Below are positions 4,433 through 28,987 of a DNA stretch of 29,209 nucleotides, one piece after another. The stretch comes from Oribacterium sp. (GTDB lineage: Bacteria > Bacillota_A > Clostridia > Lachnospirales > Lachnospiraceae): the NCBI GenBank assembly GCA_017940955.1, contig JAGAXP010000322.1:1-29209 (forward strand), written 5' to 3'. Every line of letters starts with the position of its first letter. Position 1 is the stretch's first letter. The translations under genes were made by a program, and so were the position numbers. The notes beneath the pieces were generated by a model, which saw nothing but the letters and a program-made list of their open reading frames with translations, was not told where the DNA came from and did no database searches.

Positions 4433-5512
4433 TTATTTTGATATATATCCTAATGCATCAAGCATGCTCTCATCGGATACATTGTTATCTATATAGGCAT
4501 TTCCCAGGCTATGTATCAGAATGAATCTGACACGTCCCTTATCCATTTTCTTATCTTTTCTGGTAGCCGCAAGGATTGCCTGATGATCCATGGGTTTTAA
4601 AACGGTTTGAAGCCCGACTGCTTTCATTAGTTCACAAACAGCTTTGTTTTCTTCCACGGTTGTCACATCGGAGATATGCATGGCAGCAAGGCATCCTAAA
4701 GCAACGCATTGGCCATGACTATAGGAGAAATCAGAACATTTCTCAATTGCATGTCCCAATGTATGACCAAAATTAAGAAGCTGTCTCTCTCCTTTTTCTT
4801 TAGGATCCTTCTCAACTACTTCCTTTTTTATGACATTACTCTGATATACCGTCTCCATGAGAACATCCGTATCACGATTCCTGAGACCCTCAAGATTATC
4901 TGTAAGGAATCTAAAATAGTCCTTGTCCTTAATGAGAGAATGCTTTATCACCTCTCCCATGCCGGAGGCATATTGAATTGCATCCAGGGATTCAAGCGTG
5001 CTGACAGCACTGTAAACAAGGGAAGGCATGTGAAAAGCACCTACCATATTCTTGTAGGCACGAAAATCCACTCCTGTCTTTCCGCCTATGGAGCTATCCA
5101 CCTGCGAAAGCAACGTGGTCGGAATCTGAATAAATCTGATACCTCTCATATATGTTGCGGCGGCAAATCCTGTCATATCTCCCACAACTCCGCCTCCGAG
5201 AGCCACCATGAAATCATTTCTGTCAAAATCATCCTGTATAGCCTTTTCATAGATATGGGCTATGGAATCTGTATTTTTATTTTCTTCCCCCGGTGTCAGG
5301 ATGATCTCATCCACAAAGCAAAAACACTCCGAAAGGATATCCTTAATCTTATCAAGATATAAAGGTGCCACATTCTTATCTGTAACTATCAGCGCCCTTC
5401 TGTCAGAAACCTGCAGCCCGGAAACAGCATCCCTTAACTCCTCAAAGGTCTTTTCTATGTATATATGATAAGAAAACTCATCCTCATAATTGACATCCAG
5501 TTTTTTAGACAT
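4433..5512 (-). CDS. aroB: 3-dehydroquinate synthase
   Basis: The 359-residue enzyme converts DAHP to 3-dehydroquinate, step two of the shikimate pathway, using NAD and a divalent metal. The NAD-binding glycine motif ALGGGVVGDMTGF (104-116) and RFIQIPTTLLSQVDSSIGGKTGVD (about 126-149) are diagnostic. Metal ligands are expected at Glu187 (GEVIKH), His250 (LNFGHTLGH) and His266 (YSHGQ), and all are present. The length is normal. The start is fixed by AGGAGG six bases before the ATG. It is the first gene of an aroB-lspA-rluD-NlpC/P60 group. Upstream is a 59-nt sequence repeated before mrdA, directly after the sepF terminator. No other shikimate gene is nearby. Confidence 0.97.
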   Translation of the reverse strand: MSKKLDVNYEDEFSYHIYIEKTFEELRDAVSGLQVSDRRALIVTDKNVAPLYLDKIKDILSECFCFVDEIILTPGEENKNTDSIAHIYEKAIQDDFDRNDFMVALGGGVVGDMTGFAAATYMRGIRFIQIPTTLLSQVDSSIGGKTGVDFRAYKNMVGAFHMPSLVYSAVSTLESLDAIQYASGMGEVIKHSLIKDKDYFRFLTDNLEGLRNRDTDVLMETVYQSNVIKKEVVEKDPKEKGERQLLNFGHTLGHAIEKCSDFSYSHGQCVALGCLAAMHISDVTTVEENKAVCELMKAVGLQTVLKPMDHQAILAATRKDKKMDKGRVRFILIHSLGNAYIDNNVSDESMLDALGYISK

Positions 5513-5524
5513 AGCTTCCTCCTA

Positions 5525-5583
5525 CTATAAACGAATGTTTTTCGCCGTTTATCTTTGACATACAGTTGAAGATCTGATCGGCT
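5525..5583 (-). repeat. 59-nt leader repeat, copy A (before aroB)
   Basis: On the minus strand this segment aligns without gaps to 13877-13935, with 46 of 59 bases identical by my hand count. The best-conserved blocks are CTGTATGTC, then ATAAACGGCGAAAAA, then CGTTTA-AG. The outer parts of the last two blocks can pair (ATAAACG with CGTTTAT), giving a seven-pair stem with a 12-nt purine-rich loop (GCGAAAAACATT). The aroB ribosome site follows within about four bases. It begins about three bases after the sepF terminator tract, so it must either contain the aroB promoter or act as a leader on read-through transcripts. Function unknown. Confidence 0.65.
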
Positions 5584-10986: not shown

Positions 10987-13860
10987 TCAGTCTACGACAT
11001 TCAATGCAGAAACGCCTGATGCATCTCTTGAAAGGATTGCGTCCAGACTATCCTTGCCATAGCAATAGTTATAAACCGTATTAGCCAGGTTTGCGGCATT
11101 TCCGGAAGAATATCCGTAAGGAATGTTTACGGTAACGGTTATCTCGGGATTTCCATAGGGTGCAAAAGAAACGAATACGGCATGATTTCCTCTGTCCTCA
11201 CGTTCCTGAGCCGTTCCTGTCTTACCCGCTATAGGAATGTCCTGACCAAGGAAAACTCTCTTGGCAACACCCTCTGTGATCATTTCACGGAGTCCCTTAT
11301 GAACCGCATTCCAGGTAATATCACTGAAATCCAGGTTCCTCACCACAACAGGCTCGATGTTTTTCACTATAGAACCATCCGAGTTTGTGACCTTATCAAT
11401 AACCGAAAGATCAAAAACAGTCCCCTTATTTGCAACAGCAGTTATGTACCTTGAAAGCTGAACAACATTGTACGCATGATTTCCCTGACCCATAGCGGAA
11501 CGCTCGGGGTCATAATCGGAGATACGGGGCATAGCTTCATCTATCTCTACTCCGGAAAGAGAATCAAGACCAAACAGTGAAGCATACTTATGTATTCTTT
11601 CAAGACCGATGGTCTGATTATAATTTCCCGCATCATCCGTAGAAAGCAGGTGACCTACCGCCGCAAAGAAAAAGTTACAGGAATTCTTGATTCCGTCTAC
11701 AACATTCTCTCTTCCATGGGACTGCGGATATATCCAGCATCGGATATTGGGAGTAACCTCCTCGTAAACACCGGTACAGTCAATGACGGTATTCAGTGTC
11801 ATTACCCCTTCCTCAAGAGCCGCAACCGATGTTAACGGCTTAAAGGTAGATCCCGGCGCAAGCTGTGTCTGGGTTGCACCGTTAAGAAGCGGCAATGACA
11901 AGTCATTATTGCATCTTTTCAGATAAGCGGGATCAGTTATCCTGTTGTTGTCAAAGCTCGGATATGTCACAAGCGCGCGCACCTTTCCCGTATCAACATC
12001 CGTAACCACCACAGATCCGTTACACGGATCAAGCGCAAGCTGAGCCGGAGTAATCTCGATTTTTCTTATCTTTGATATCAGGAAAGTATATGCGTAATGT
12101 TCATCTCCCGCGGAAAGCTGAGCATAGGCTTCCGGATCCTCCTCCAGTACTCCCTGCTCAAAAAGTGCCATAAGCAGTACGTATCCCGGAATGATCCGGT
12201 TTGCTATTGCATATCTATAGAGTACTTTATCAAAATCAGGATTGCTGTTCAGCTGATCTATCAGCATCTGAACAAACAAGGTATAGACATTATCCGAATC
12301 ATAGTACTCATCGGACAAATCAAGCTTCGAAGTGTCCAGCCATGCTTCATCTATTCCACTTAAGATAAAATCTTTAAGAGTAATTGTATCATCCTTCCAT
12401 GCCGCATAGGCTTCCGACTCACGATACTTTTGATCGGTGATGTCTATGATCCCATTCTCCTTTTTCCCAAGGTAGTCATAAATATATACGATATAAGCCT
12501 GCATATCCTGCGGCAGCTCTTTCAGTCCGCTGGTTGTAGGATGAAGCAGTTCCTCCTGGATAGCCGCAAGCTTAGTCTTCTTGTTCGCCTCAAACGCCTC
12601 GGCTATACGACGCTCAGCTGTTCCCTCTTCCGCACTGCTGAAATGTGCCGAATCCAGAATATTGTTATTGATAAGCTGATAATAGGCATCTTTAACCGGA
12701 ATTGTGATCTCTGACTGCTCGATCACAGCATTATCATCGTTGAGATCCTGTTCTGTGATCTTCGAAGCCAGAAGACCGGCAAGCTCCTGTTCAAGCAGAT
12801 GATATATGGCGATCTGATCATTTGCGGAAATGGTTGTATAGACATCATTTCCTGCGGCAGCATCAGTCTCGGAAACAACCTCGAGAATGGAGCCAACGGA
12901 GTTAAGGTACATCTGCCGATGTCCTTTTTTACCCTTAAGCTCTGACTCCATACTCTTTTCTATGCCCCAGACTCCCACAACATCATTAAGTTCATAGGAA
13001 TCATCCGTTTTCTTCAGCTCCTCGAGCTGTTCTGCATGAACCTGACCTGTATAACCTACGATATGGCTCATATAAGGCGCGAAATTATACTTTCTCACAG
13101 AAACATTATCAATGTCTACGCCCTTAAGCTCGCCCTTTGCTTCAAGTATCTCTGCCGTACACTCTTCCGAAACATTTTTTACTATGGTTGTGGTCTGGTA
13201 CCTCTGGTAGGCAGTAAGACGCATGGTATAAAAGATATTGATCATATCCAGGGCCAGCTTATCCGACAAAACGATGGGATTTTTCTTCTCATCCCACATA
13301 TTGTCAAATCTGTATCTGCTTTTTGATGTCTCAAAGGCCTGTCTTGCAGTCACATTGAAATCCTTTTCGGAAAGATCCTCAATGTTTCTGCCTCTTATAT
13401 TTGAAATAAGTCTCTTCCGGTCATCCTCCGAGCTTGTGGTGAAATAAAATTCTCCGGAATCATCCAACTTTATCTTGTACTGCCCGTCAATGTCATACCC
13501 GTGTTTTTCAATGATCCGGGCAAGGCGCATCAGCATACGGTTTCTGCTGTTGATTCCCTCTGTGGAGGTGTCATAAGCACCGTTATCCGTAATAGTGATG
13601 TTGTACTGAAGCTCATTGTAGGCCAGCAGTTTACCATCCCTGTCGTAGATATTGCCTCTTGTTCCGTTGCTTGTTATCTCTGCAAGAGTACGATTCTGAT
13701 AATCCGACAGGTATTTTTCACCATTTACTATCTGAAGATCAAATAAACGAAACCCCAGAACCATAAACAAAATCGAAAAAATAAGTCCAAGCGCAAAAAG
13801 TCTTGAACTTACGAATCGAACAGTAAATTCTTTGATTACTTCAAAAATTTCTTTGAACAA
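10987..13860 (-). CDS. mrdA: Penicillin-binding protein 2, elongation transpeptidase
   Basis: The 957-residue class B PBP has a short cytoplasmic tail, one membrane helix (about 20-40), the PBP dimerisation region starting at TRGNIYDRDGKLLAYN (67-82) and a transpeptidase domain. Motifs are Ser671-Thr-Phe-Lys674, Ser727-Cys-Asn729 and Lys880-Thr-Gly. It cross-links side-wall peptidoglycan with RodA. Between VYTTISANDQIAIYHLLEQEL (about 340-360) and GSVVVTDVDTGKVRAL (615-630), which nearly adjoin in E. coli PBP2, about 245 residues are inserted, making it much longer than usual. The start is TTG at 13858-13860, with GAGGAG eight bases upstream; an in-frame stop lies just before, and no ATG occurs until inside the membrane helix. 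The leader repeat at 13877-13935 precedes it. Confidence 0.94.
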   Translation of the reverse strand: MFKEIFEVIKEFTVRFVSSRLFALGLIFSILFMVLGFRLFDLQIVNGEKYLSDYQNRTLAEITSNGTRGNIYDRDGKLLAYNELQYNITITDNGAYDTSTEGINSRNRMLMRLARIIEKHGYDIDGQYKIKLDDSGEFYFTTSSEDDRKRLISNIRGRNIEDLSEKDFNVTARQAFETSKSRYRFDNMWDEKKNPIVLSDKLALDMINIFYTMRLTAYQRYQTTTIVKNVSEECTAEILEAKGELKGVDIDNVSVRKYNFAPYMSHIVGYTGQVHAEQLEELKKTDDSYELNDVVGVWGIEKSMESELKGKKGHRQMYLNSVGSILEVVSETDAAAGNDVYTTISANDQIAIYHLLEQELAGLLASKITEQDLNDDNAVIEQSEITIPVKDAYYQLINNNILDSAHFSSAEEGTAERRIAEAFEANKKTKLAAIQEELLHPTTSGLKELPQDMQAYIVYIYDYLGKKENGIIDITDQKYRESEAYAAWKDDTITLKDFILSGIDEAWLDTSKLDLSDEYYDSDNVYTLFVQMLIDQLNSNPDFDKVLYRYAIANRIIPGYVLLMALFEQGVLEEDPEAYAQLSAGDEHYAYTFLISKIRKIEITPAQLALDPCNGSVVVTDVDTGKVRALVTYPSFDNNRITDPAYLKRCNNDLSLPLLNGATQTQLAPGSTFKPLTSVAALEEGVMTLNTVIDCTGVYEEVTPNIRCWIYPQSHGRENVVDGIKNSCNFFFAAVGHLLSTDDAGNYNQTIGLERIHKYASLFGLDSLSGVEIDEAMPRISDYDPERSAMGQGNHAYNVVQLSRYITAVANKGTVFDLSVIDKVTNSDGSIVKNIEPVVVRNLDFSDITWNAVHKGLREMITEGVAKRVFLGQDIPIAGKTGTAQEREDRGNHAVFVSFAPYGNPEITVTVNIPYGYSSGNAANLANTVYNYCYGKDSLDAILSRDASGVSALNVVD

Positions 13861-13876
13861 TGTATATGCTCCTCAT

Positions 13877-13935
13877 CTGTAAACGCACTTTTTTCGCCGT
13901 TTATTTCCGACATACAGATGCACATCCAATTGGCT
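13877..13935 (-). repeat. 59-nt leader repeat, copy B (before mrdA)
   Basis: This is the partner of the repeat before aroB, aligned without gaps over 59 bases. Its first bases overlap the mreD stop codon, and its end lies a few bases before the GAGGAG of mrdA, so it fills nearly the whole mreD-mrdA gap. The ATAAACG/CGTTTA stem is kept, while the loop differs (GCGAAAAAAGTG) only after the shared GCGAAAAA. Because this copy lies inside an operon, an RNA-level role such as translation control or processing is more natural than a promoter role. Confidence 0.65.
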
Positions 13936-16610: not shown

Positions 16611-16782
16611 GAGAAAATGCCATTAGATGGCGCTACGTTGGGAACCCCGGCCCATTGAAACTCGCTTCGCGAGGGCCGGGGCTATATGACAAGTTCCCTG
16701 CGGAAACTTGCCACGAATCGCGCCGGGCATTTTCGTTTGATTTCGGCTTTCGCCGAAACCAGCCTCGCCGGCTGGGCGGCAT
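16611..16782 (-). repeat. 172-nt modular structured intergenic element, copy 1
   Basis: This and 24298-24469 share a core of three hairpins: GAAAATGCC/GGCATTTTC enclosing GGCGC/GCGCC, then TTTCGGC/GCCGAAA, then CCAGCC/GGCTGG. The 91-nt core is almost identical in the two copies (differences only in loops and at junctions). In copy 1 the 81-nt module B (16638-16718) is inserted in the loop of the first hairpin. The element starts at the base of a hairpin that contains the ynbB stop codon. It encodes no protein. I do not recognise it as a named family; it resembles REP/MITE-type dispersed elements in size and structure. Confidence 0.85.
16638..16718 (+). repeat. Module B, forward copy
   Basis: These 81 bases read TTGGGAAC to CCACGAAT on the plus strand. 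They form two hairpins: a nine-pair stem CCCCGGCCC/GGGCCGGGG enclosing CTCGCTTCGCGAG, and a 12-pair stem around AAGTT/AACTT. It matches 24375-24455 in the opposite orientation (about 64 of 81 bases by hand count), with paired changes in the stems. Confidence 0.75.
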
Positions 16783-16805
16783 CATCATTTCTTCGAAATG
16801 ATGAT
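16781..16805 (-). other. Stop-codon hairpin of ynbB
   Basis: ATCATCATTT and AAATGATGAT form a perfect ten-pair stem with a five-base loop. One arm is the last ynbB codons and the other contains the TGA stop. The 172-nt element follows directly, and there is no U-tract, as if an element had landed where a terminator tract once was. Confidence 0.6.
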
Positions 16806-18074
16806 AAGTCCTTTCTCGTACATCTTCTGTACTGCCATCATGATGCCGAGCTTTGCATGGTACCAGGTGAGACCGCCCTGGAAATAAACATTAAACGGCG
16901 GCTTAATGGGGCCATCTGCAGAAAGCTCGATAGAACTGCCCTGAACGAAAGCACCTGCTGCCATGATGACCTTACTGTCATAACCCGGCATATCGTCGGG
17001 ATACGGTGTTACGAAGCTGTTTACAGGGGCTGCTGCCTGTATTCCCTGACAAAAGGCAACAACAGCCTCCTCGGAACCAAGTGTAATAGCCTGTATGATG
17101 TCATATCTCGCGCTGTCAGCAGTGGGTTGACAGACAAAGCCAAGCTTCTCAAATACCTTAGCCGCAAAGATCGCTCCCTTTTCAGCTGCTGCCGTTATGG
17201 TAGGCGCCAGGAAAAGTCCCTGATAGAAGCTCTTGTTAACGTCAAGAGACGGTCCTACTTCCTTTCCAAGTCCCGGAGTTGTGAGACGAACCGCGCATCT
17301 TTCGATACACTCCTTTGTTCCGGCTATATAGCCTCCGATAGGAGCAAGTCCGCCGCCCGGATTCTTGATAAGTGAACCCACAACCATATCTGCTCCAAAG
17401 GTCGAAGGCTCCTCCTTTGTCACAAACTCACCGTAACAATTATCCACCATACAGATGACGTCCGGCTTGATTCCCTTTATAAACCTTATAAGCTCACCGA
17501 TCTTCTCCGGTGAGAATGTATCTCTTGTGGCATATCCTTTTGATCTCTGTATCTCCACTAGCTTTGTCTTTTCATTTATTGCAGCCTTAATGCCTTCATA
17601 ATCAAATTCCGAACCCGGAAGAAGATCCACCTGGCGATAGCTTACTCCATACTCCTGAAGACTTCCCACTGAAGGTCTGATGCCGATGATCTCCTCCAAA
17701 GTGTCATAGGGTTTTCCTGCAGGGCAAAGAATTTCATCTCCCGGTCTTGTATTAGCATAAAGCGCTGTGGAAAGTGCATGTGTACCGCAAACGATCTGTG
17801 AGCGGACAAGCGCATCCTCCGTGTCGAAAAGATTGGCATAAACCTTTTCCAGGGTATCACGGCCGATGTCATCATAGCCGTAGCCTGTGGTTCCGTAGAG
17901 GTGAGCCTCAGAAACCTGGGCATCCTGCATTGCCTTGATAACCTTAAGCTGATTGTACTCGGCAATGTCATCTATCTCCTGAAATCTGTCCTTAAGTGTA
18001 CGGAGCTCTGTCTCGCAGAAATCATAAATCTCCGCTGCTATCCCAAGAGACTCAAACATTTCTCTGTTATCCAT
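16785..18074 (-). CDS. ynbB: PLP-dependent methionine gamma-lyase-like (aluminium resistance family) protein
   Basis: The 429-residue protein is of the Cys/Met-metabolism PLP type known as the aluminium resistance or YnbB family. The PLP lysine is expected at Lys237 (VVGSLIKNPGGG), and Asp211 (CMVDNCYGEF) should contact the pyridine nitrogen. YGTTGYGYDDIGRD (60-73) and RSQIVCGTHALS (91-102) are typical. The substrate is not established; a C-S lyase activity is inferred from the fold. It overlaps the miaA 3' end by 37 bases, and its AGGA lies inside miaA, so translation is linked. Complete; the stop codon sits in a perfect hairpin followed by a repeat element. Confidence 0.92.
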   Translation of the reverse strand: MDNREMFESLGIAAEIYDFCETELRTLKDRFQEIDDIAEYNQLKVIKAMQDAQVSEAHLYGTTGYGYDDIGRDTLEKVYANLFDTEDALVRSQIVCGTHALSTALYANTRPGDEILCPAGKPYDTLEEIIGIRPSVGSLQEYGVSYRQVDLLPGSEFDYEGIKAAINEKTKLVEIQRSKGYATRDTFSPEKIGELIRFIKGIKPDVICMVDNCYGEFVTKEEPSTFGADMVVGSLIKNPGGGLAPIGGYIAGTKECIERCAVRLTTPGLGKEVGPSLDVNKSFYQGLFLAPTITAAAEKGAIFAAKVFEKLGFVCQPTADSARYDIIQAITLGSEEAVVAFCQGIQAAAPVNSFVTPYPDDMPGYDSKVIMAAGAFVQGSSIELSADGPIKPPFNVYFQGGLTWYHAKLGIMMAVQKMYEKGLIIISKK

Positions 18075-19039
18075 TCTGTAATCCTGTCCTTCTTGTAATC
18101 AAAATCCTTTATATTTACAAAATTCACATTGCGTTCTCTTTTGAACCATGTGATCTGTCTTTTAGCATAATTCCTTGAATCCTGCTTTATCTTCTCGACA
18201 GCCTGAACGATTATAGCACTTTTTTCCGATGCCGCAAGATTTCCTTTATCAATGGCCTCAAAGGCAGCAATAAGCTCACGGTAGCCGATGCCCTTCATGG
18301 AGGTCCTTTCCTCAGGAAGATGAAGCTCGTAAAGCCACCTGGCTTCTTCTATAAGTCCCTGCTCCACCATCAGGTCCACACGTTTGTTAATGCGTTCATA
18401 CAGGGTCTCTCTGTCATCCGTAAGCACAAAAAATGCGGGGGAATATACAGCCTGCTTTTCCCTCTCCTCCTCATTGTGGGCTGAAATGGGGGAGCCATGA
18501 AGCTCATAAAACTCAAGTGCCCTTATAACGCGGCGAATATTGTGCTCATGGATTTTTTCCAAAGATTTGGGATCCACCTCCGAAAGCTTTTTATACATTG
18601 CCTCGGGACCTCCCGGTTCCTTTGCCATAGCCTCCAGCCTGTCTCTTATCTCCTTATGAGCTCCTTCGTCCTCTTCCGTGAAATCTATACCATAAAGAAG
18701 CCCCTGAATGTAAAACCCGGTGCCTCCCGCAAGGATGGGCACATGACCCCTCTCATATATCCCTTCGATAGCATCGGAGGCCATCTTCTGAAAAAGGCTC
18801 ACATCATAATCCTCAGTCACGTCGATAATGTCTATGAGATGATGAGGCACACCTTCCATCTCGTCTTTTGTGACCTTTGCACTGCCTATATCAAGCTTTC
18901 TGTATACCTGAACAGAATCCGCCGAGACTATCTCACCGTCAAGGGCTTTGGCCAGAGCAACTGATGTTGACGTTTTCCCCACAGCTGTAGGCCCCGCAAT
19001 AATGATAAGAGGCTTCTTTGTTAAATCAATTTTTTTCAA
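18038..19039 (-). CDS. miaA: tRNA dimethylallyltransferase
   Basis: The 333-residue enzyme transfers a dimethylallyl group to A37 of tRNAs reading UNN codons. The P-loop GPTAVGKT (16-23), SADSVQVYRKLDIGSAKVT (about 34-52) and the KGIGYRELI motif are diagnostic, and the length is normal. The start codon is TTG at 19037-19039, with GGAAGG eight bases before; no in-frame ATG exists upstream before a stop. Its product is the substrate of MiaB, encoded in the same region (24487-25926), so both steps of ms2i6A37 synthesis are present. It is placed between mutL and ynbB, as in many Clostridia, but hfq does not follow. Confidence 0.96.
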   Translation of the reverse strand: MKKIDLTKKPLIIIAGPTAVGKTSTSVALAKALDGEIVSADSVQVYRKLDIGSAKVTKDEMEGVPHHLIDIIDVTEDYDVSLFQKMASDAIEGIYERGHVPILAGGTGFYIQGLLYGIDFTEEDEGAHKEIRDRLEAMAKEPGGPEAMYKKLSEVDPKSLEKIHEHNIRRVIRALEFYELHGSPISAHNEEEREKQAVYSPAFFVLTDDRETLYERINKRVDLMVEQGLIEEARWLYELHLPEERTSMKGIGYRELIAAFEAIDKGNLAASEKSAIIVQAVEKIKQDSRNYAKRQITWFKRERNVNFVNIKDFDYKKDRITEWITEKCLSLLG

Positions 19040-19125
19040 ACTTAATACCTTCCAATGTCACGACCCCCCTCCGTCTACGGATTAATGTTCCGAAGTCAGA
19101 TAGTCTTATGACATATATAAAACTG

Positions 19126-21354
19126 TTAAACGATACGTTTAAATTTCTTTTCCAGCTCATATTTTGACATGGAAATGATGGTAGGGCGTCCGTGGGGACA
19201 GGCATAAGGATTTTCAAGCTCCAGAAGCTCTGAAATAAGGGTATCCGCCTCCATCAGACTAAGTTTATTATTGCCCTTCACTGCCGCCTTGCAGGACATG
19301 GAGGCAATCTTATAATATATGGAATCAGGTGTTGTCATGCCGGTTTCGTCACTTAAACCATCAAGCATCTCAAGAAGAAGCTCCTTCTTTCCTATTTCCG
19401 GAAGGTCCGTCGGAACTGCGGAAATGCTGAAATCCCTGCCTCCGAGGTCACTGATCTCGAATCCCAGATTCCGGAAGTACTCTTCATACTCATTGAGAAG
19501 CACTGCCTCTTCGGGGGTAAGTGTCACTAGAATCGGCGGATTTAGATACTGGCTTGCCGGTTTACGCTCCTTCAGGCGCTTCATCATTCTCTCAAAATTC
19601 ACCTTTTCGTGAGCTGCGTGCTGATCAATGATATAAAGCTTGTCGCCATATTCTATCAGCCAGTAGGTCTCAAACACCTGTCCTATGATCCTGTGCTGAA
19701 GCTTTGCTTTTTCACTCAGGAACTTTTCCGAAAATAATGTTTCCTGCTGAGGTTTCGTCATCAGCACCTTTTCGGATCCATTACCGGTTTCTGATGCTTC
19801 ACCTGCCGGTTCGGAGTTATCCGGTGCATCGGAAAGAGTTTTACTTTCTGATTTCTCAATGCTGTAAGCATCAGGCTCTTCAGAACTTCCGTTTAGAATG
19901 TTCTCCCGGATATAGTTCTTCTCTGCCTCATCTGCCGCCTTCTTAAAATCCGAAAGTCCGAATCCGGATTTAGGTTCTGCCACTTTCGCATCTACTGATG
20001 AGCTCCCGATACCTTCGCTGCTGTGCTTTGCTGCATAGTCCCTGCGATACTGACTGTATCCAACCGCATTACCGGACCAGCTGTTTTTTTCACTCACACC
20101 TGTGCCGGCAGCATTTTGCCCGTTCAGATATATATCCGACTTCGGTACCGCCTCCGGATGTATCTCCGGTCTCAGGGCTTCCTCATACTGCCGGTTTGTT
20201 TCTTCCTTACGGTTTTTCTCGAAGGGTTCCACATGAGGCAGGGTCTTTTCCTTTTCTTCTATCTCCACATGAGGGTCAAGGTCCGCTTTCTTTGAGGTAT
20301 TCTCATCTCTTCCGAAGTTCTCCAGATCCGTATTAAGTATAAGCTCTGTTTCCCTGAGGGCATTCTGTACAGAATCCACGATGGAATTGTATATGAGCAT
20401 GCCATCCGAAAATCTCACCTCCAGCTTCTGGGGATGAACATTAACATCCACTATTTCCGGATTCACATCTACCATGAGAACGGTAAACGGAAACTTATGC
20501 TGCATAAGGAAAGCATGATATCCATCCTCGATGGCCTTCGTAACCATAGGATTCTTCACGAATCTCGAGTTTACAAAATATATTTCAAAATTGCGGTTTG
20601 CTCTTGTGATCACAGGCTTTCCTATGAAACCCCGGACCGTTACCGCAGGAAGTCCCGTAAGCTGTGATCTTTGATATTGGCGATTTACAGTGATAAGCTG
20701 ATTCGTCACATCACGGCCGTAAATGGAGTAAATCACATCCAGAAGCGAACCGTTGCCAAGAGTCGCCAGTCTCTGACGGCCATCCTGAATGTATCGGAAC
20801 GCCACTTCGGGGTGTGCCAATGCTTCCTTCTCCAGAATATCCTGAATGCGGGCAGCTTCCGTCTGCGGACTCTTCAGAAACTTTCTTCTGGCGGGAACAT
20901 TTTTAAAAATGTCTCTGACGATAAAAGTTGTGCCGTTGGGAGCACCGATCTCGGAAAAGTCCTTCTCCACTCCGCCTTCTATCTCATAGTGTGAGGCCAT
21001 GAGTGCCCCGGGAGTCTTGCTTATGAGTTCAACTCTGGAAACACTTGCTATGGACGCCAGGGCCTCGCCTCTGAAACCAAGGGTCTGAATATTCTCAAGA
21101 TCCCTGGCCTCCCTTATCTTGGAGGTTGCATGTCTGAGAAACGCATTCCTTACATCATCCTTGTCGATACCGCCGCCATTATCGGTTATACGTATCATGG
21201 CGATGCCTCCGTCCCGCACTTCCACGGTGACCGAAGTGGAACCCGCATCGATGGCATTTTCCAAAAGCTCCTTAACAACGCTTAAAGGCCGCTCTATAAC
21301 TTCACCTGCTGCAATCTGGTTGATAGTTTCGTCACTTAAAACCTTAATCTTCAT
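19126..21354 (-). CDS. mutL: DNA mismatch repair protein MutL with endonuclease motif
   Basis: The 742-residue protein has an N-terminal GHKL ATPase domain (about 1-335; ELLENAIDAGST, ITDNGGGI, LGFRGEALASI), a charged linker (about 340-545) and a C-terminal dimerisation domain. The endonuclease signature DQHAAHEKVNFE (about 577-588), SCKAAVKGN and ACPHGRPT are all present, so this is the nicking type found in bacteria without MutH. It acts with MutS, encoded just upstream. A separate promoter is likely, because mutS ends in a strong terminator. Start: AGGA eight bases before the ATG. Confidence 0.97.
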   Translation of the reverse strand: MKIKVLSDETINQIAAGEVIERPLSVVKELLENAIDAGSTSVTVEVRDGGIAMIRITDNGGGIDKDDVRNAFLRHATSKIREARDLENIQTLGFRGEALASIASVSRVELISKTPGALMASHYEIEGGVEKDFSEIGAPNGTTFIVRDIFKNVPARRKFLKSPQTEAARIQDILEKEALAHPEVAFRYIQDGRQRLATLGNGSLLDVIYSIYGRDVTNQLITVNRQYQRSQLTGLPAVTVRGFIGKPVITRANRNFEIYFVNSRFVKNPMVTKAIEDGYHAFLMQHKFPFTVLMVDVNPEIVDVNVHPQKLEVRFSDGMLIYNSIVDSVQNALRETELILNTDLENFGRDENTSKKADLDPHVEIEEKEKTLPHVEPFEKNRKEETNRQYEEALRPEIHPEAVPKSDIYLNGQNAAGTGVSEKNSWSGNAVGYSQYRRDYAAKHSSEGIGSSSVDAKVAEPKSGFGLSDFKKAADEAEKNYIRENILNGSSEEPDAYSIEKSESKTLSDAPDNSEPAGEASETGNGSEKVLMTKPQQETLFSEKFLSEKAKLQHRIIGQVFETYWLIEYGDKLYIIDQHAAHEKVNFERMMKRLKERKPASQYLNPPILVTLTPEEAVLLNEYEEYFRNLGFEISDLGGRDFSISAVPTDLPEIGKKELLLEMLDGLSDETGMTTPDSIYYKIASMSCKAAVKGNNKLSLMEADTLISELLELENPYACPHGRPTIISMSKYELEKKFKRIV

Positions 21355-21446
21355 ATCTATAGTCCTGCCTGTATCTTCAGTCTAAACGAAATAATATCTC
21401 AACTGATATATGAGGAAACCCGTTCAGATTCCTCACCTCTGACCAA

Positions 21447-21476
21447 TTAATAATTCAATCATATACTCTGTATCAA
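21447..21476 (-). promoter_or_regulatory. Possible promoter and leader of mutL
   Basis: TTGATA (21471-21476) and TATTAA (21447-21452) are 18 bases apart on the minus strand. The following leader of about 90 bases has a seven-pair stem, TGAGGAA/TTCCTCA (21411-21435). A further stem (21502-21525) lies upstream, between the mutS terminator and this promoter. The -10 is only moderate. Confidence 0.4.
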
Positions 21477-21540
21477 ATGCAAGTTTTATTTTTACATAAT
21501 AGAGTAGGGAAAATACGCCCCACTCGATTCCACTTTGACC

Positions 21541-21552
21541 GTCACATGTGAC
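21541..21552. promoter_or_regulatory. Perfect palindrome GTCACATGTGAC upstream of mutL
   Basis: The 12-base perfect palindrome lies between the mutS terminator and the mutL promoter, flanked on one side by another TGAC. It could be a dimeric-repressor site about 65 bases upstream of the -35. It does not match the Gram-positive LexA box (CGAAC-N4-GTTCG). Confidence 0.35.
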
Positions 21553-21564
21553 AGCCTTATCGTG

Positions 21565-21599
21565 AAAAAATGCAGTACCCCTTTCATAGGTACTGCATT
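21565..21599 (-). terminator. Rho-independent terminator of mutS
   Basis: Ten bases after the mutS stop, AATGCAGTACC pairs with GGTACTGCATT (11 perfect pairs, nine-base loop), with a run of six U from 21570 to 21565. It is the clearest terminator of the window and separates mutS from mutL. Confidence 0.92.
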
Positions 21600-21608
21600 G
21601 CATCAGAA

Positions 21609-24272
21609 TCATACACCAAATTTTGATTTCAATTCATACAGAGTGTTCATGGCATCAAGAGGTGTCATGTGATTCACATCCAGAGCCTTGAGGTACTCAA
21701 GAGCTTCTCGGATATCGGCGCCGTATCCGGCTTCATTTTCGATGTCCTTCACCGCCTTTTCCTCATTCCGGTCTGCAAGGAAGCCTTCTTCGTCAAATGC
21801 TTCCTGAGTGAAGCTCTCACTTGTCTCGATATTCTTCGCCTTCGCTGTGATATCCGCATCACTCAGCTCCGCTGCGATAACCTTGGCTCTGTCGATAACC
21901 GGCTTCGGAACTCCCGCAAGACTCGCCACATCGATACCATAGGACCTGTCAGCGCCTCCCGGGATTATCTTACGGAGGAACACGATGTCCTGATCGTGGT
22001 TTGTAACAGCGATACAGTAATTGTTCACGCCCTCAAGCTTACCCTCAAGCTCCGTGAGCTCATGATAGTGGGTGGCAAAAAGAGTTTTCGCCTTAACAAC
22101 CTTTGCGATATATTCAACCACCGCCCAGGCAATGCTGAGACCGTCAAAGGTACTGGTTCCTCTTCCAATCTCATCCAGAATAAGAAGTGACCTGGTTGTG
22201 GCATTTCTCAGGATATTGGCAACCTCGTTCATTTCCACCATAAAGGTAGACTGCCCGGAAGCAAGATCGTCACTGGCTCCGACACGGGTAAATATCCTGT
22301 CACAGATAGATATCTCAGCGCTCTTAGCCGGTACAAAGGAACCGATGGAGGCCATAAGGACGATAAGTGCCACCTGTCTCATATAGGTGGATTTACCTGC
22401 CATATTAGGTCCCGTGATAACAGCGATACGATTGGTGCTGTCATCAAGGACCGTGTCATTGGACACAAACATACCATCCCTTATGAGCTTCTCGATAACC
22501 GGGTGTCTTCCATCCTTAATGTTGATTATTCCATTTTCGTTAATCTCCGGACGGCAGTAATTGTTATCCGTAGCCACCTTGGAAAGAGATATTATACAGT
22601 CGATAAGCGCCACATAGTGGGAGGTTCTCTGTATACGCTGAATGTTTCCGGCAATGGTATCTCTCACGTCGCAGAACAGCTCATATTCCAGCTGGTTAAG
22701 CTTCTCCTCAGCGCCGAGAATTGTGTTCTGAAGCTCCTCAAGCTTATCGGTAGTATAACGTTCACTGCCTGTAAGTGTCTGTTTTCTGATGAAATAATCC
22801 GGCACCATATCCCGGAAGGTATTGGTAACCTCAAAGCAGTACCCGAATATACGGTTGTACTTTATTTTCAGAGACTTGATCCCGGTCTTTTCACGTTCCG
22901 AGGCCTCAAGATCCGCGAGCCACTGTTTACCGCTGACACGGGAATCCTTATAACGGTCCACTTCCTCATGAAAGCCTTCCTTTATGACACCGCCGTCTCT
23001 TGAGGATAAAGGCGGATTCTCCTCTATAGCCTTATCTATAAGCTCATAAAGATCTTCCATGGGGTCAATGCCGTCATGTATTTCCTTTACAAGTGCGGAG
23101 TCAAAGCTTGAAAGCTCCTGAATGATATCCGGAAGCATCTTAAGTGACTGCTTAAAAGCTATAAGATCTCTTGGATTTGCAGACTTATAGCATATCCGTC
23201 CGAGAAGTCTCTCATAATCATAAATGGTATTCAGATACTCGGAAATCTCCTCACGATCGATGTAGTGAGAGCAGAAATCCTCCACCGCATCCTGACGGGC
23301 AAGAATAGCCTCCCTGTCTATAAGCGGCTGCTCCAGGAAGCGCCTCAGCATCCTGGCACCCATGGCAGTCTTTGTCTTATCCAGAACCCAGAGAAGGGAG
23401 CCTCTCTTTTTCTTTTCTCTCATGGTCTCGCAAAGCTCCAGATTACGCTGGGTAGCTGTGTCAATGATCATATACTGGTCACTGGAGTAATACTTTATAT
23501 TTGCGATATGCTCCACAGCATTCATCTGTGTATCATAAACATATCTTAATGCCGCTGCGGCACTGAGTCTTGCAAGGTCTCTGTCGGAAAGACCTATACC
23601 GCTGATGCTTGCATGGAAGTGCTCCTCCAGAAGCGTTGTTGCCTTTACGTCATCATAAACCTCATCCGGAAGCTCTGTGATGATAAGACCGAAACGGTTC
23701 TTGATATCATCGGTATCGATGCCGGAGATCATAAATGCCTGGTTGCAGACTATCTCCGCGGGAGAAAATCTGCTGAGCTCATCCATAACATCCTTTTCAT
23801 TGCCGCAGGTAGTGGTCATAAACTCACCTGTGGTAATGTCTACACTGGAAACTCCAAATCCTGTAGCATCATAAAATATACTCATGAGGAAGTTGTTCTT
23901 TGTTTCATCCAGTGCCTGCTCAGAGGTCAGGGTTCCCGGTGTTATGACACGGATAACTCCCCTTTTCACAAGCCCTTTTGTAAGCTTTGGATCCTCAAGC
24001 TGCTCCGCAATGGCTACCTTATAGCCGCTTGCGGCAAGACGTGCCACATATCCGTCCGCTGCATGGAAAGGTATACCGCACATAGGTGCACGTTCTTCCA
24101 TTCCGCAGTCCTTGCCGGTGAGTACCAGATCAAGCACTGAGGATGCGGTTTTTGCATCTTCAAAGAACATCTCATAAAAATCACCTATACGGTAAAACAG
24201 AATACAGTCAGGATACTGCTTTTTCGTTTCCAGATATTCAACCATCATGGGTGACATCTTCTTTTCAGCCAT
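21609..24272 (-). CDS. mutS: DNA mismatch recognition protein MutS
   Basis: I start at MAEKKMSP (ATG at 24270-24272) because AAGGAG lies six bases before it; the longer frame begins inside that ribosome site. The 887-residue protein carries the mismatch-wedge motif GDFYEMF (Phe32, Glu34), the lever and clamp domains, and a C-terminal ABC-type ATPase with GPNMAGKSTYMRQ, ILDEIGRGTSTFDG and ATHYHELTEL. It finds mismatches and recruits MutL. Upstream, between mutS and miaB, lies the second 172-nt element, so no separate promoter is evident; mutS is probably read from the miaB transcript through the element. Confidence 0.97.
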   Translation of the reverse strand: MAEKKMSPMMVEYLETKKQYPDCILFYRIGDFYEMFFEDAKTASSVLDLVLTGKDCGMEERAPMCGIPFHAADGYVARLAASGYKVAIAEQLEDPKLTKGLVKRGVIRVITPGTLTSEQALDETKNNFLMSIFYDATGFGVSSVDITTGEFMTTTCGNEKDVMDELSRFSPAEIVCNQAFMISGIDTDDIKNRFGLIITELPDEVYDDVKATTLLEEHFHASISGIGLSDRDLARLSAAAALRYVYDTQMNAVEHIANIKYYSSDQYMIIDTATQRNLELCETMREKKKRGSLLWVLDKTKTAMGARMLRRFLEQPLIDREAILARQDAVEDFCSHYIDREEISEYLNTIYDYERLLGRICYKSANPRDLIAFKQSLKMLPDIIQELSSFDSALVKEIHDGIDPMEDLYELIDKAIEENPPLSSRDGGVIKEGFHEEVDRYKDSRVSGKQWLADLEASEREKTGIKSLKIKYNRIFGYCFEVTNTFRDMVPDYFIRKQTLTGSERYTTDKLEELQNTILGAEEKLNQLEYELFCDVRDTIAGNIQRIQRTSHYVALIDCIISLSKVATDNNYCRPEINENGIINIKDGRHPVIEKLIRDGMFVSNDTVLDDSTNRIAVITGPNMAGKSTYMRQVALIVLMASIGSFVPAKSAEISICDRIFTRVGASDDLASGQSTFMVEMNEVANILRNATTRSLLILDEIGRGTSTFDGLSIAWAVVEYIAKVVKAKTLFATHYHELTELEGKLEGVNNYCIAVTNHDQDIVFLRKIIPGGADRSYGIDVASLAGVPKPVIDRAKVIAAELSDADITAKAKNIETSESFTQEAFDEEGFLADRNEEKAVKDIENEAGYGADIREALEYLKALDVNHMTPLDAMNTLYELKSKFGV

Positions 24273-24297
24273 CTGTCTCTCCTTAAATAAATACAAA

Positions 24298-24469
24298 GAG
24301 AAAATGCCATTAGATGGCGCTTACGCGCCGGGCATTTTCGTTTGATTTCGGCTCACGCCGAAACCAGCCTCGCCATTTGTGACAGGTTTTCGTAGAAAAC
24401 CTGTCATGTAGCGTCAGCCCTCGCGAAGCGAGTTTAAATGGGCTGACGTTCCCACCGGCTGGGCGGCAT
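24298..24469 (-). repeat. 172-nt modular structured intergenic element, copy 2
   Basis: Its core matches copy 1 (16611-16782) almost base for base, and the total length is the same. Here the first hairpin is closed by a short TTA loop, while module B (24375-24455) sits between the arms of the third hairpin, in reverse orientation compared with copy 1. The element directly follows the hairpin containing the miaB stop codon and ends 26 bases before the mutS start, so it is probably part of a miaB-mutS mRNA. No protein is encoded. Confidence 0.85.
24375..24455 (-). repeat. Module B, inverted copy
   Basis: Read on the minus strand, this is GTGGGAAC to TCACAAAT, 81 bases long like the forward copy at 16638-16718. 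Stems are CGTCAGCCC/GGGCTGACG and a perfect 12-pair stem, TGACAGGTTTTC/GAAAACCTGTCA. The CTCGCTTCGCGAG inner hairpin is unchanged between copies. Confidence 0.75.
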
Positions 24470-24493
24470 CCTAATTGCTGACGCAACTAGGAT
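24468..24493 (-). other. Stop-codon hairpin of miaB
   Basis: ATCCTAGTTGC and GCAATTAGGAT on the minus strand form an 11-pair stem (one G-U) with a four-base loop; the TAG stop is inside one arm. As with ynbB, the 172-nt element begins at the foot of this hairpin and no U-tract follows. Confidence 0.6.
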
Positions 24494-25926
24494 AACTCAC
24501 CAAAATAATAGAAACCTTTACTCTCCGTCAGCCTTACCATCTGCATGGTTCCGATGAGGCTCTTATCGCCGGGGAAGTGTACAAGCACGCTGTTTGAAAG
24601 TCTGCCTGTTACATAACCCTCCTGGTTCTTGTTCTCATCCTCAACCAGAACCTCCATTACCTTGCCCAGGTCTCTTGTCTCATTCTCCGCCGAGCTGTCC
24701 TGAACCACCTTGAGAAGTCTGTCAAAGCGGTCCTTAACGATATCCTCCGGGACCTGATCTTCAAATTTTGCAGCAGGTGTGCCGGTACGCTTGCTGTATA
24801 TAAATGTATACGCAGCGTCATACTTACACTCCTTAACAACATCAATGGTATCCAGGAAATCTTCCTCTGTCTCTCCGGGGAATCCGACGATTATATCTGT
24901 TGTAAGAGTTGCCTCGGGAATCGCAGTTCTTATCTTTCTCACAAGCTCAAGATAGCTCTCCTTGGTATAATGTCTGTTCATTTTCTTAAGAATAGCGCTT
25001 GAACCTGACTGAAGAGGCAGATGGATATGTCTCTCTATAATTGGATGAGTTCTCATTACCTCGATAAGCTCATCTGAAAAATCCTTTGGATTTGAAGTCA
25101 TGTAGCGAAGTCTCTTAAGACCCGGAAGCTCCGCAACAGCCTTTAAAAGCTCGGGGAAGGTTGTTGAACCGGGAATGTCATTACCATAGGAATTGACATT
25201 CTGACCGAGAAGCATGATCTCAAGACATCCATCTGCGATGAGCTTTTCACACTCTCTCAGGATATCCGTTGCATTACGTGACTTCTCACGGCCCCTTACA
25301 TAAGGCACGATGCAATATGTGCAGAAATTGTTACATCCGTAGCTGATATTTACAGATCCCTTGAATCTGAACTTTCTGTCAGAAGGAAGGTCCTCAACGA
25401 TCATCTTTGTATCATCGATAACCTCTACTGTACGCTTTCCGGTAACCAGTGACTTGTATAAAAGCTCTGCCAGCTTGTAGACATTATGTGTTCCGAACAC
25501 AAGCTTTACATAAGGATAATGCTTACATATGCCTTCAACCTCATCCTTCTCCTGCATCATACAGCCGGTGATACCGATGATCATTCCGTCACGCTTCTCA
25601 TACTGATGCTTAAGTCTCCCCACACGGCCGTACAGCTTCTGGTTTGCATTCTCTCTTACCGTACAGGTTGTGAAAAGCACGATGTCCGCATCCCAGTCAT
25701 CTTCAGTGGTTGTGTAGCCGCACTTCTCAAGGATTCCGAGAAGCTTCTCGCCGTCCTTGGCAGACATCTGGCATCCCATAACTTCAACCATACAATGAGC
25801 CTTGTAGCCTTCCTGCTTCTTGATCTCAACAAGCTCACGTACCCTGTCCATAAAGTAGTACTGTCTTGCGGGCTCCTCAGCCGGTGCCTGTTCAATTATT
25901 TCCTTGTAATCGATAATGTATTCCAT
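24487..25926 (-). CDS. miaB: tRNA-2-methylthio-N6-dimethylallyladenosine synthase
   Basis: The 479-residue radical-SAM methylthiotransferase adds the ms2 group to i6A37 of tRNA. Cys52, Cys88 and Cys122 (GCQM, TTCTV, GCMMQ) should bind the auxiliary cluster, and Cys198, Cys202 and Cys205 (GCNNFCTYC) the SAM cluster. A TRAM-like domain ends the protein (about 405-478). About 40 extra residues precede the usual N-terminus. The ATG at 25924-25926 has a short GAGG before it and a very stable hairpin (25941-25970) just upstream. It acts on the product of MiaA (18038-19039). Confidence 0.96.
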   Translation of the reverse strand: MEYIIDYKEIIEQAPAEEPARQYYFMDRVRELVEIKKQEGYKAHCMVEVMGCQMSAKDGEKLLGILEKCGYTTTEDDWDADIVLFTTCTVRENANQKLYGRVGRLKHQYEKRDGMIIGITGCMMQEKDEVEGICKHYPYVKLVFGTHNVYKLAELLYKSLVTGKRTVEVIDDTKMIVEDLPSDRKFRFKGSVNISYGCNNFCTYCIVPYVRGREKSRNATDILRECEKLIADGCLEIMLLGQNVNSYGNDIPGSTTFPELLKAVAELPGLKRLRYMTSNPKDFSDELIEVMRTHPIIERHIHLPLQSGSSAILKKMNRHYTKESYLELVRKIRTAIPEATLTTDIIVGFPGETEEDFLDTIDVVKECKYDAAYTFIYSKRTGTPAAKFEDQVPEDIVKDRFDRLLKVVQDSSAENETRDLGKVMEVLVEDENKNQEGYVTGRLSNSVLVHFPGDKSLIGTMQMVRLTESKGFYYFGELS

Positions 25927-28817: not shown

Positions 28818-28987
28818 GCATGGCACAGACTTATAAATCACCCATTGCTCCGCTATGCTTCCGCAATGCCGCAAAAATCTCGAATCTGCGCCTATACGCT
28901 GCTTCTCGATTTTCGTTGTCGTGTCATATACATATGGGTTTTTGCATGCAGGCACGCCAAACCCATATGTGCATGACACAGACTTAT
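28818..28987. repeat. Structured intergenic element flanked by 17-bp direct repeats
   Basis: GCATGGCACAGACTTAT (28818-28834) and GCATGACACAGACTTAT (28971-28987) are direct repeats with one mismatch around about 136 bases. Inside is a long hairpin: GTGTCAT/ATGACAC (outer seven pairs) and CATATGGGTTT/AAACCCATATG (inner 11 perfect pairs; 28921-28979), plus weaker stems (CATTGC/GCAATG at about 28843-28867, and AAAATC/GATTTT). It fills the gap between the oxidoreductase and proB and is not convincingly coding. It resembles a small dispersed (MITE-like) element. Confidence 0.55.

Follow-up and report, generated by a model that had tools for sequence, protein, structure and literature searches.

A probably mobile double-hairpin repeat nested in the hairpin tips of another repeat in Oribacterium

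Two composite repeats in the window

The window, by which we mean the whole stretch of DNA that was analysed, is 29,209 nt long and comes from Oribacterium (Lachnospiraceae). Between positions 16611 and 24469 it carries two copies of a composite repeat, which begin at 16611 and 24298 as the first-pass annotation had them. Each copy consists of a core of several hairpins and a module, B, that interrupts one of these hairpins, and each lies beside the 3' end of a gene. The features are as follows.

Copy 1, 16611..16635, + strand: core hairpin 1, 5' arm (GAGAAAATGCC...GGCGCTA), from the sequence and as helix 1 of the core alignment
Copy 1, 16636..16718 (83 nt), + strand: B module, forward, in the tip of hairpin 1; matched by model R1 at 16639-16717, and comparable to an 83-nt insert in RUI013 relative to KHPX15
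Copy 1, 16719..16734, + strand: core hairpin 1, 3' arm, from the sequence
Copy 1, 16741..16758, + strand: core hairpin 2, from the sequence and core alignment
Copy 1, 16759..16775, + strand: core hairpin 3, no insert, from the sequence
Copy 1, 16781..16805, + strand: core hairpin 4, containing the stop codon of the Met gamma-lyase gene, from the sequence and core alignment
Beside copy 1, 16785-18074, - strand: Met gamma-lyase gene, with its stop codon in hairpin 4
Copy 2, 24298..24339, + strand: core hairpin 1, no insert (tip TTAC), from the sequence
Copy 2, 24346..24363, + strand: core hairpin 2, from the sequence and core alignment
Copy 2, 24364..24374, + strand: core hairpin 3, 5' arm, from the sequence
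Copy 2, 24375..24456 (82 nt), - strand: B module, inverted, in the tip of hairpin 3; matched by model R1 at 24376-24454 (-), and an insert missing in KHPX15
Copy 2, 24457..24462, + strand: core hairpin 3, 3' arm, from the sequence
Copy 2, 24468..24493, + strand: core hairpin 4, containing the stop codon of the radical-SAM/TRAM (miaB-like) gene, from the sequence and core alignment
Beside copy 2, 24487-25926, - strand: radical-SAM/TRAM (miaB-like) gene, with its stop codon in hairpin 4

As first described, the two core copies are nearly identical; the only differences are at the junctions with B and at two bases in the loop of hairpin 2. The core had been read as three hairpins ending at 16782 and 24469, but in both copies a fourth follows (16781-16805 and 24468-24493). 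In copy 1 B is flanked by GGCGCTA and CGCGCC, and in copy 2 it lies inverted between the hairpin 3 arms CCAGCC(TCGCC) and GGCTGG; both sites and both orientations are thus as originally proposed, although the inserts measure 83 and 82 nt rather than 81 nt. That both elements were given the same length, 172 nt, we regard as a coincidence of insert and tip sizes. No inverted repeat in the window is longer than the one formed by the two B copies (87 nt, 79% complementary); since the runner-up is only 31 nt long at 71%, chance is excluded. Among the differences between the B copies, put at about 79% identity by the first-pass annotation, many are matched by a change on the other side of the stem, so that both hairpins are preserved. 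Conversion of one copy into the other by a single inversion or rearrangement was rejected, because the core segment between the two sites keeps its orientation, as had been correctly argued, and because orthologous loci show separate insertions.

The core and B as separate repeat families

Alignment of 17 cores shows that 98.0% of the cells in the four core helices are paired. Hairpin 4 is variable in sequence with conserved pairing, six of the nine pairs of its helix having changes on both sides, and eight of the nine pairs of helix 1 are invariant. The core motif was found with at most two mismatches in 11 of 17 Oribacterium genomes, nine of them with four to nine matches each and the other two each with a single two-mismatch hit; Oribacterium genome G008 has a variant core and no match to B. 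A stricter, exact core pattern was present in one of 299 Lachnospiraceae genomes (298 genera), that of Oribacterium sp. NK2B42 (G001), where four copies matched it. Plasmids and phages searched with copy 2 (blastn, E 1e-5) gave no match, and viral contigs contained no exact match to a 21-base core pattern. A gene was called on the hairpin 4 side in 46 cases, and in 39 of them it reads into the core; in 23 of 53 core copies no more than ∼60 nt separates the gene end from hairpin 4. The core thus lies mostly beside gene 3' ends, which many REPs likewise adjoin. The presence of copies at orthologous sites in several species suggests that the core is an old repeat.

Several features of individual core loci are noted here. 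Core copies at L034 and L053 (C9), near contig ends, lie directly upstream of what we take to be the start of a 16S rRNA gene. At L033, L050, L054 and L078 the core has a copy of hairpin 4 on each side, partly with the neighbouring gene end included, resembling a long target duplication or a tandem remnant. At L005, L055, L060 and L063 inspection by eye suggests that a larger palindrome (GGGATG...GAGAT / ATCTCG...CATCCC) encloses the core, which may represent nesting one level further. Comparison of L080 with L049 shows changes on both sides of most hairpin 4 stem pairs, against ∼90% identity in the remainder of the region, which suggests replacement of the stem, perhaps by template switching, rather than point changes.

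B is an independent, non-coding element of 78 to 83 nt with two covarying imperfect hairpins. With up to 150 candidates scored per genome, model R1 gave at least 149 matches in eight of the 17 Oribacterium genomes, mostly away from the core; under stricter filters it matched at least three of 120 family genomes, the match in G103 being weak. With a second model, R2, also run under stricter filters, relatives of B were recovered in at least nine of 299 family genomes, representing eight genera besides Oribacterium. Because the distributions of B and the core differ, we treat them as separate families with different ranges. The weak G103 hits (L294, L297, L299, L302 and L305) look like another palindromic repeat family, in a different genus (GCACGCACAGC...GCTGTGC). 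For the set of loci used below, most R1 matches under about 41 bits were left out; 135 nhmmer rows were reduced to 119 B copies by removing rows with duplicate flanks and rows truncated at the end of a locus, and the 109 copies with a score of 25 or more served for the flank-pairing and start-codon counts.

Structure was assessed in 89 copies. The paired cells of the B hairpins amount to 92.7%, and 15 of 22 pairs have changes on both sides, a value reached in three of 500 shuffles; cells with both sides changed number 204 against a shuffled mean of 62.8, with no shuffle of 500 as high. Imperfect pairs comprise 65 G-U and 53 A-C and show no clear strand preference, as would be expected of a structure that matters at the DNA level, or of drift in old copies. 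The ends of B are TTGGGAAC and CACRAAT, with at most a weak outer stem and no terminal inverted repeats, and the target duplication is 0–2 nt (none at L049), the exact ends being uncertain by 2–3 nt. Both hairpins are preceded by tag-like tetranucleotides and have a common reading direction; on the gene-sense strand hairpin A follows GTAG in 30, ATAG in 31 and GCAG in 15 of the 89 copies, and hairpin B follows GTGG in 53 of 89. Many B copies lie within a larger terminal-inverted-repeat element (∼TGATRTRAGTGTCA), in head-to-tail arrays (L112, L177 and L187) or before genes. Four loci (L120, L130, L151 and L164) contain a larger mosaic element with these terminal inverted repeats and one or two B copies at similar places. 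A search of 20 loci with B or core against Rfam 15 returned three matches at E up to 1, all below their gathering scores, and a known RNA family was accordingly rejected for both repeats.

Insertion of B at orthologous loci

Comparison with sister species reveals both filled and empty sites. Relative to KHPX15, copy 2 of the window has a single extra stretch, cleanly inserted in hairpin 3 and 82 nt long, and the other blocks are 92–100% identical; the same site lacks B in JC7 too (L030). RUI013 and KHPX15 differ by a single 83-nt insert in hairpin 1 at one locus (L028 and L063, respectively) and by a single 82-nt insert in hairpin 3 at another (L080 and L052). This second locus, next to a presumably dus-like gene, can be followed in three species: B is absent from KHPX15, lies inverted in hairpin 3 in RUI013, and in NK2B42 (L049) occupies hairpin 1 in forward orientation, with hairpin 3 empty. 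B has therefore been inserted separately at orthologous cores, in two positions and two orientations. The arrangement is not a fixed one, and the empty and filled orthologous sites support the proposal, made from the window alone, that B is a separate mobile unit that enters hairpin loops, although entry into tips accounts for only a subset of its copies.

At the copy 1 site, NK2B42 and the window agree in the tip that holds B and in its orientation. The block that contains most of B is identical at 80 of 98 positions, and the other five are identical at 92/100, 96/100, 97/100, 98/100 and 70/72. These values suggest that B was replaced at this tip, or was inserted there twice, although fast compensated evolution in place could also explain the divergence.

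An orientation-free scan for pieces of the core within 70 nt found one in only 21 of the 119 B copies, 15 of them credible and six being weak hits of 9–12 nt; B thus exists apart from the core, one of the arrangements that the first-pass annotation had proposed to look for. Cores without B, also on its list, are seen too: among 57 readable cores (63 distinct core rows minus six unreadable), 48 lack B, three have it in hairpin 1, five have it in hairpin 3 and one is odd (L212). Within the 15 credible cases B is in hairpin 1 five times, always forward, and in hairpin 3 ten times, always inverted. These cases include the orthologous pair of window copy 1 and L006, the L035 tandem pair, the degenerate L078 and the truncated second B of L056; a stricter flank rule restricted to the two known arrangements gave four and nine copies. 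B in another loop, likewise on that list, was seen once, at L163, where a B lies cleanly in the tip of B's own hairpin (CGCTT^CGCG); within cores, the scan of the 119 copies yielded no other place or orientation. Half-structures are present at L113 and L114, and L164 looks like a product of deletion.

Core hairpin 1 and B itself share the target GCT[A/T]^CGCG, and the minus strand of hairpin 3 reads AGCC^GGCG. Across the 109 scored copies, the pairs that bridge B have a median of 3.6 against 3.7 for swapped flanks and a mean of 5.0 against 4.5. At least five bridging pairs are present in 40/109 copies (control, 38%), at least six in 35/109 (30%) and at least eight in 25/109 (17%). As the excess is confined to the tail of the distribution, tip targeting describes a subset of B copies.

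Nature and mobilisation of B

We consider it probable that B is a small, non-coding, non-autonomous mobile double-hairpin element, and a later, repeated invader of the older core, with hairpin tips as one favoured target. B would insert as a unit of 78–83 nt; at the tip of a GC-rich hairpin the site would set its orientation, and 0–2 bases would be duplicated. The core would be the older repeat and mostly vertically inherited, with B arriving later and more than once. The enzyme may recognise its target in the form of a DNA hairpin that is extruded or single-stranded; it would presumably act in trans, and would not have to be a Y1 transposase encoded in the genome that carries B.

A different role is raised by the position of some copies ahead of genes. 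Counting start codons 5–45 nt downstream of B with a frame of at least 100 aa, 37/109 copies have a downstream gene in the sense direction and 9/109 in the mirror direction; a spacing of 12–20 nt with a Shine-Dalgarno-like site occurs in 25/109 sense but 1/109 mirror cases, at about 20 loci after merging of orthologs. Judging from their N-terminal residues, we take genes downstream of B to include queA, enolase, araA and rpiB. In other genera, seven of 28 loci have a sense frame of at least 264 aa starting 15–23 nt downstream (L293, L296, L310, L311, L312, L314 and L326), and three loci have a mirror frame of 106–226 aa (L315, L321 and L326) with odd spacing or start codon. The pre-gene copies tend to be the more diverged ones, and some are orthologous across species with paired changes that are visible by eye (L198/L200/L210 and L118/L010). 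Fourteen pre-gene copies, read in the gene sense, have 13 G-U and 7 A-C pairs, and the other 75, read on the B strand, have 58 G-U and 40 A-C and lean the opposite way; in these small numbers there is a weak hint of RNA-level selection on the pre-gene copies. Copies just before Shine-Dalgarno sites may be kept as a transcribed leader.

Taken further, B could primarily be a cis-acting 5'-UTR RNA leader, and its copies in repeats would be by-products of leader copying. The orientation bias, the paired differences between orthologs (L198/L200 and L118/L010) and the similar placement in other genera are what such a leader predicts. However, most high-scoring copies are not before genes, the downstream genes have no evident function in common, the imperfect pairs have no clear strand bias overall, and no Rfam match reaches its gathering score; we regard this explanation as possible, if doubtful. 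A broader version makes B a mobile riboregulator, a self-copying leader RNA domain located mostly 12–20 nt before starts in one orientation in several Lachnospiraceae genera, which also parasitises the tips of repeat hairpins and needs no resident Y1 enzyme, possibly through an RNA or single-stranded DNA intermediate. This seems to us rather unlikely.

Could B instead be a REP- or REPIN-type element moved by a RAYT or another IS200/IS605 Y1 transposase? The tetranucleotides before its hairpins (GTAG or ATAG before hairpin A in 30 and 31 of 89 copies, GTGG before hairpin B in 53/89), the imperfect palindromes, and Y1_Tnp matches in four of the eight Oribacterium carriers of B are all compatible with this, and REPs with tags such as GTAG, as well as REP dimers or elements inside longer palindromes in A. 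variabilis, T. roseum and H. neapolitanus, are described in PMC3733652. In these mostly draft genomes, however, Y1_Tnp was not found in the other four Oribacterium carriers, JC7 (G011), C9 (G016), WCC10 (G017) and UBA4274 (G010, 73% complete), nor in six of eight carriers from other genera, whereas five of nine Oribacterium non-carriers have it and it was not found in three of 16 non-carriers of other genera. In 25 loci around Y1 genes, a subset of the Y1 hits, there was no convincing match to B or core, the best being 15 nt of B-flanking sequence (E 0.01). The B hairpins moreover point in the same direction and are not inverted as in REPINs. The link to a RAYT or IS605-type transposase suspected at first did not hold, and a strict Y1/RAYT partnership was rejected since Y1 was not found in many carriers and B had no convincing match at the 25 Y1 loci; we think this explanation quite unlikely.

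Homologous recombination or gene conversion, rather than transposition, might shuffle B between repeats, and both the tandem arrays and the divergence of the copy 1 B from its NK2B42 ortholog, which exceeds that of its flanks, could be read in this way. Such a process would not account for a B that lies in the tip of another B, or in a new hairpin whose flanks are unrelated, and we judge it improbable. An IS110-type recombinase seems to us an improbable mover. IS110 elements have no terminal inverted repeats and some target hairpin-rich sites, B likewise has no terminal inverted repeats and a short or absent duplication, and PF01548 is matched at E 0.001 or better in all eight Oribacterium carriers (in G012 only below the curated cut-off). 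But it is present in 14 of the 17 Oribacterium genomes, including six of nine non-carriers, and 30 of the 39 listed PF01548 loci contained no convincing match to B or core, the best being 17 nt of B-flanking sequence (E 0.04). That B was ancestral to all cores and then precisely excised from most of them is hardly credible, for while excision at short repeats can occur in principle, one locus has B in different hairpins and orientations in two species and none in a third, and 48/57 cores lack it.

A reverse transcriptase as sole partner was also rejected, since RVT_1, present in 11 of 17 Oribacterium genomes, was found in only six of the eight carriers (not in G010 or G014) and in five of the nine non-carriers. 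For the non-autonomous double-hairpin element that we favour, the mover may no longer be resident in the carrier genomes.

B works like a REP or double-hairpin element but we do not file it as a member of either. It resembles REPs, REPINs and BIMEs in being a short, imperfect intergenic palindrome with a tag-like tetranucleotide before the hairpin, in tandem and mosaic clusters; it differs in its same-direction hairpins, in having GTAG in only 30/89 copies, in the many carriers in which no Y1 was found, in the empty sites that orthologous loci show for two different tips of a single host repeat, and in its preferred place before start codons. No partner RAYT/Y1 transposase was found in these mostly draft genomes and B is not a pair of inverted REPs, as REPINs are (PMC3116915). 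Because these two hallmarks were not seen and the tag is present only in part, B is filed as REP-like and as a non-member. Neither terminal inverted repeats nor a fixed-length duplication, as in TIR-type MITEs, was found. We found no literature on palindromic repeats of Oribacterium or Lachnospiraceae, on nested bacterial MITEs, or on B among structured RNAs.

The nearest analogue for nesting is the Nostoc SDR, which Elhai et al. in 2008 are said to have described as structured repeats of 21–27 nt with covarying stems, nested in themselves or in other repeats and with no known enzyme. Very small size, structure and covariation are common to both, although B is ∼80 nt long, has two hairpins and is found in Lachnospiraceae, whereas the SDR is reportedly 21–27 nt and cyanobacterial. 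The BOX, RUP and SPRITE repeats of pneumococcus are, like B and the core, structured intergenic repeats of a Firmicute; B changes place and orientation, whereas BOX varies in boxB copy number within one order. The smallest bacterial mobile elements are poorly understood, because most REPs are associated with a RAYT and loci seen clearly both before and after an insertion are rare. In the present case three sister species show an orthologous host repeat empty, with B in one tip, and with B inverted in another. With this insertion series and the carriers without a detected Y1, both hairpin-tip targeting and the enzyme's identity can be tested directly. The near-fixed spacing before start codons suggests a route from mobile hairpin to gene leader. 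The modular build of BOX, for example A1B1C1, is given in PMC3049150. Mitochondrial double-hairpin elements and yeast GC clusters are also hairpin elements thought to be mobile, albeit organellar and unrelated in sequence to B: yeast GC42 clusters have the 2-base target AG (PMC4478555), and in sponges only a few complementary substitutions separate two of the hairpin types (PMC2800124).

Two further features of the window lie outside the repeats. The only Rfam 15 family matched in it, elsewhere than the two elements, is the Clostridiales-1 RNA (RF01699), at 28833-28987 on the minus strand with 73.9 bits, which exceeds the gathering score. A pair of 59-nt repeats, 78% identical, is located at 5525-5583 and 13877-13935, directly upstream of the starts of two minus-strand frames (4433-5512 and 10987-13860), and could be a shared promoter or leader.
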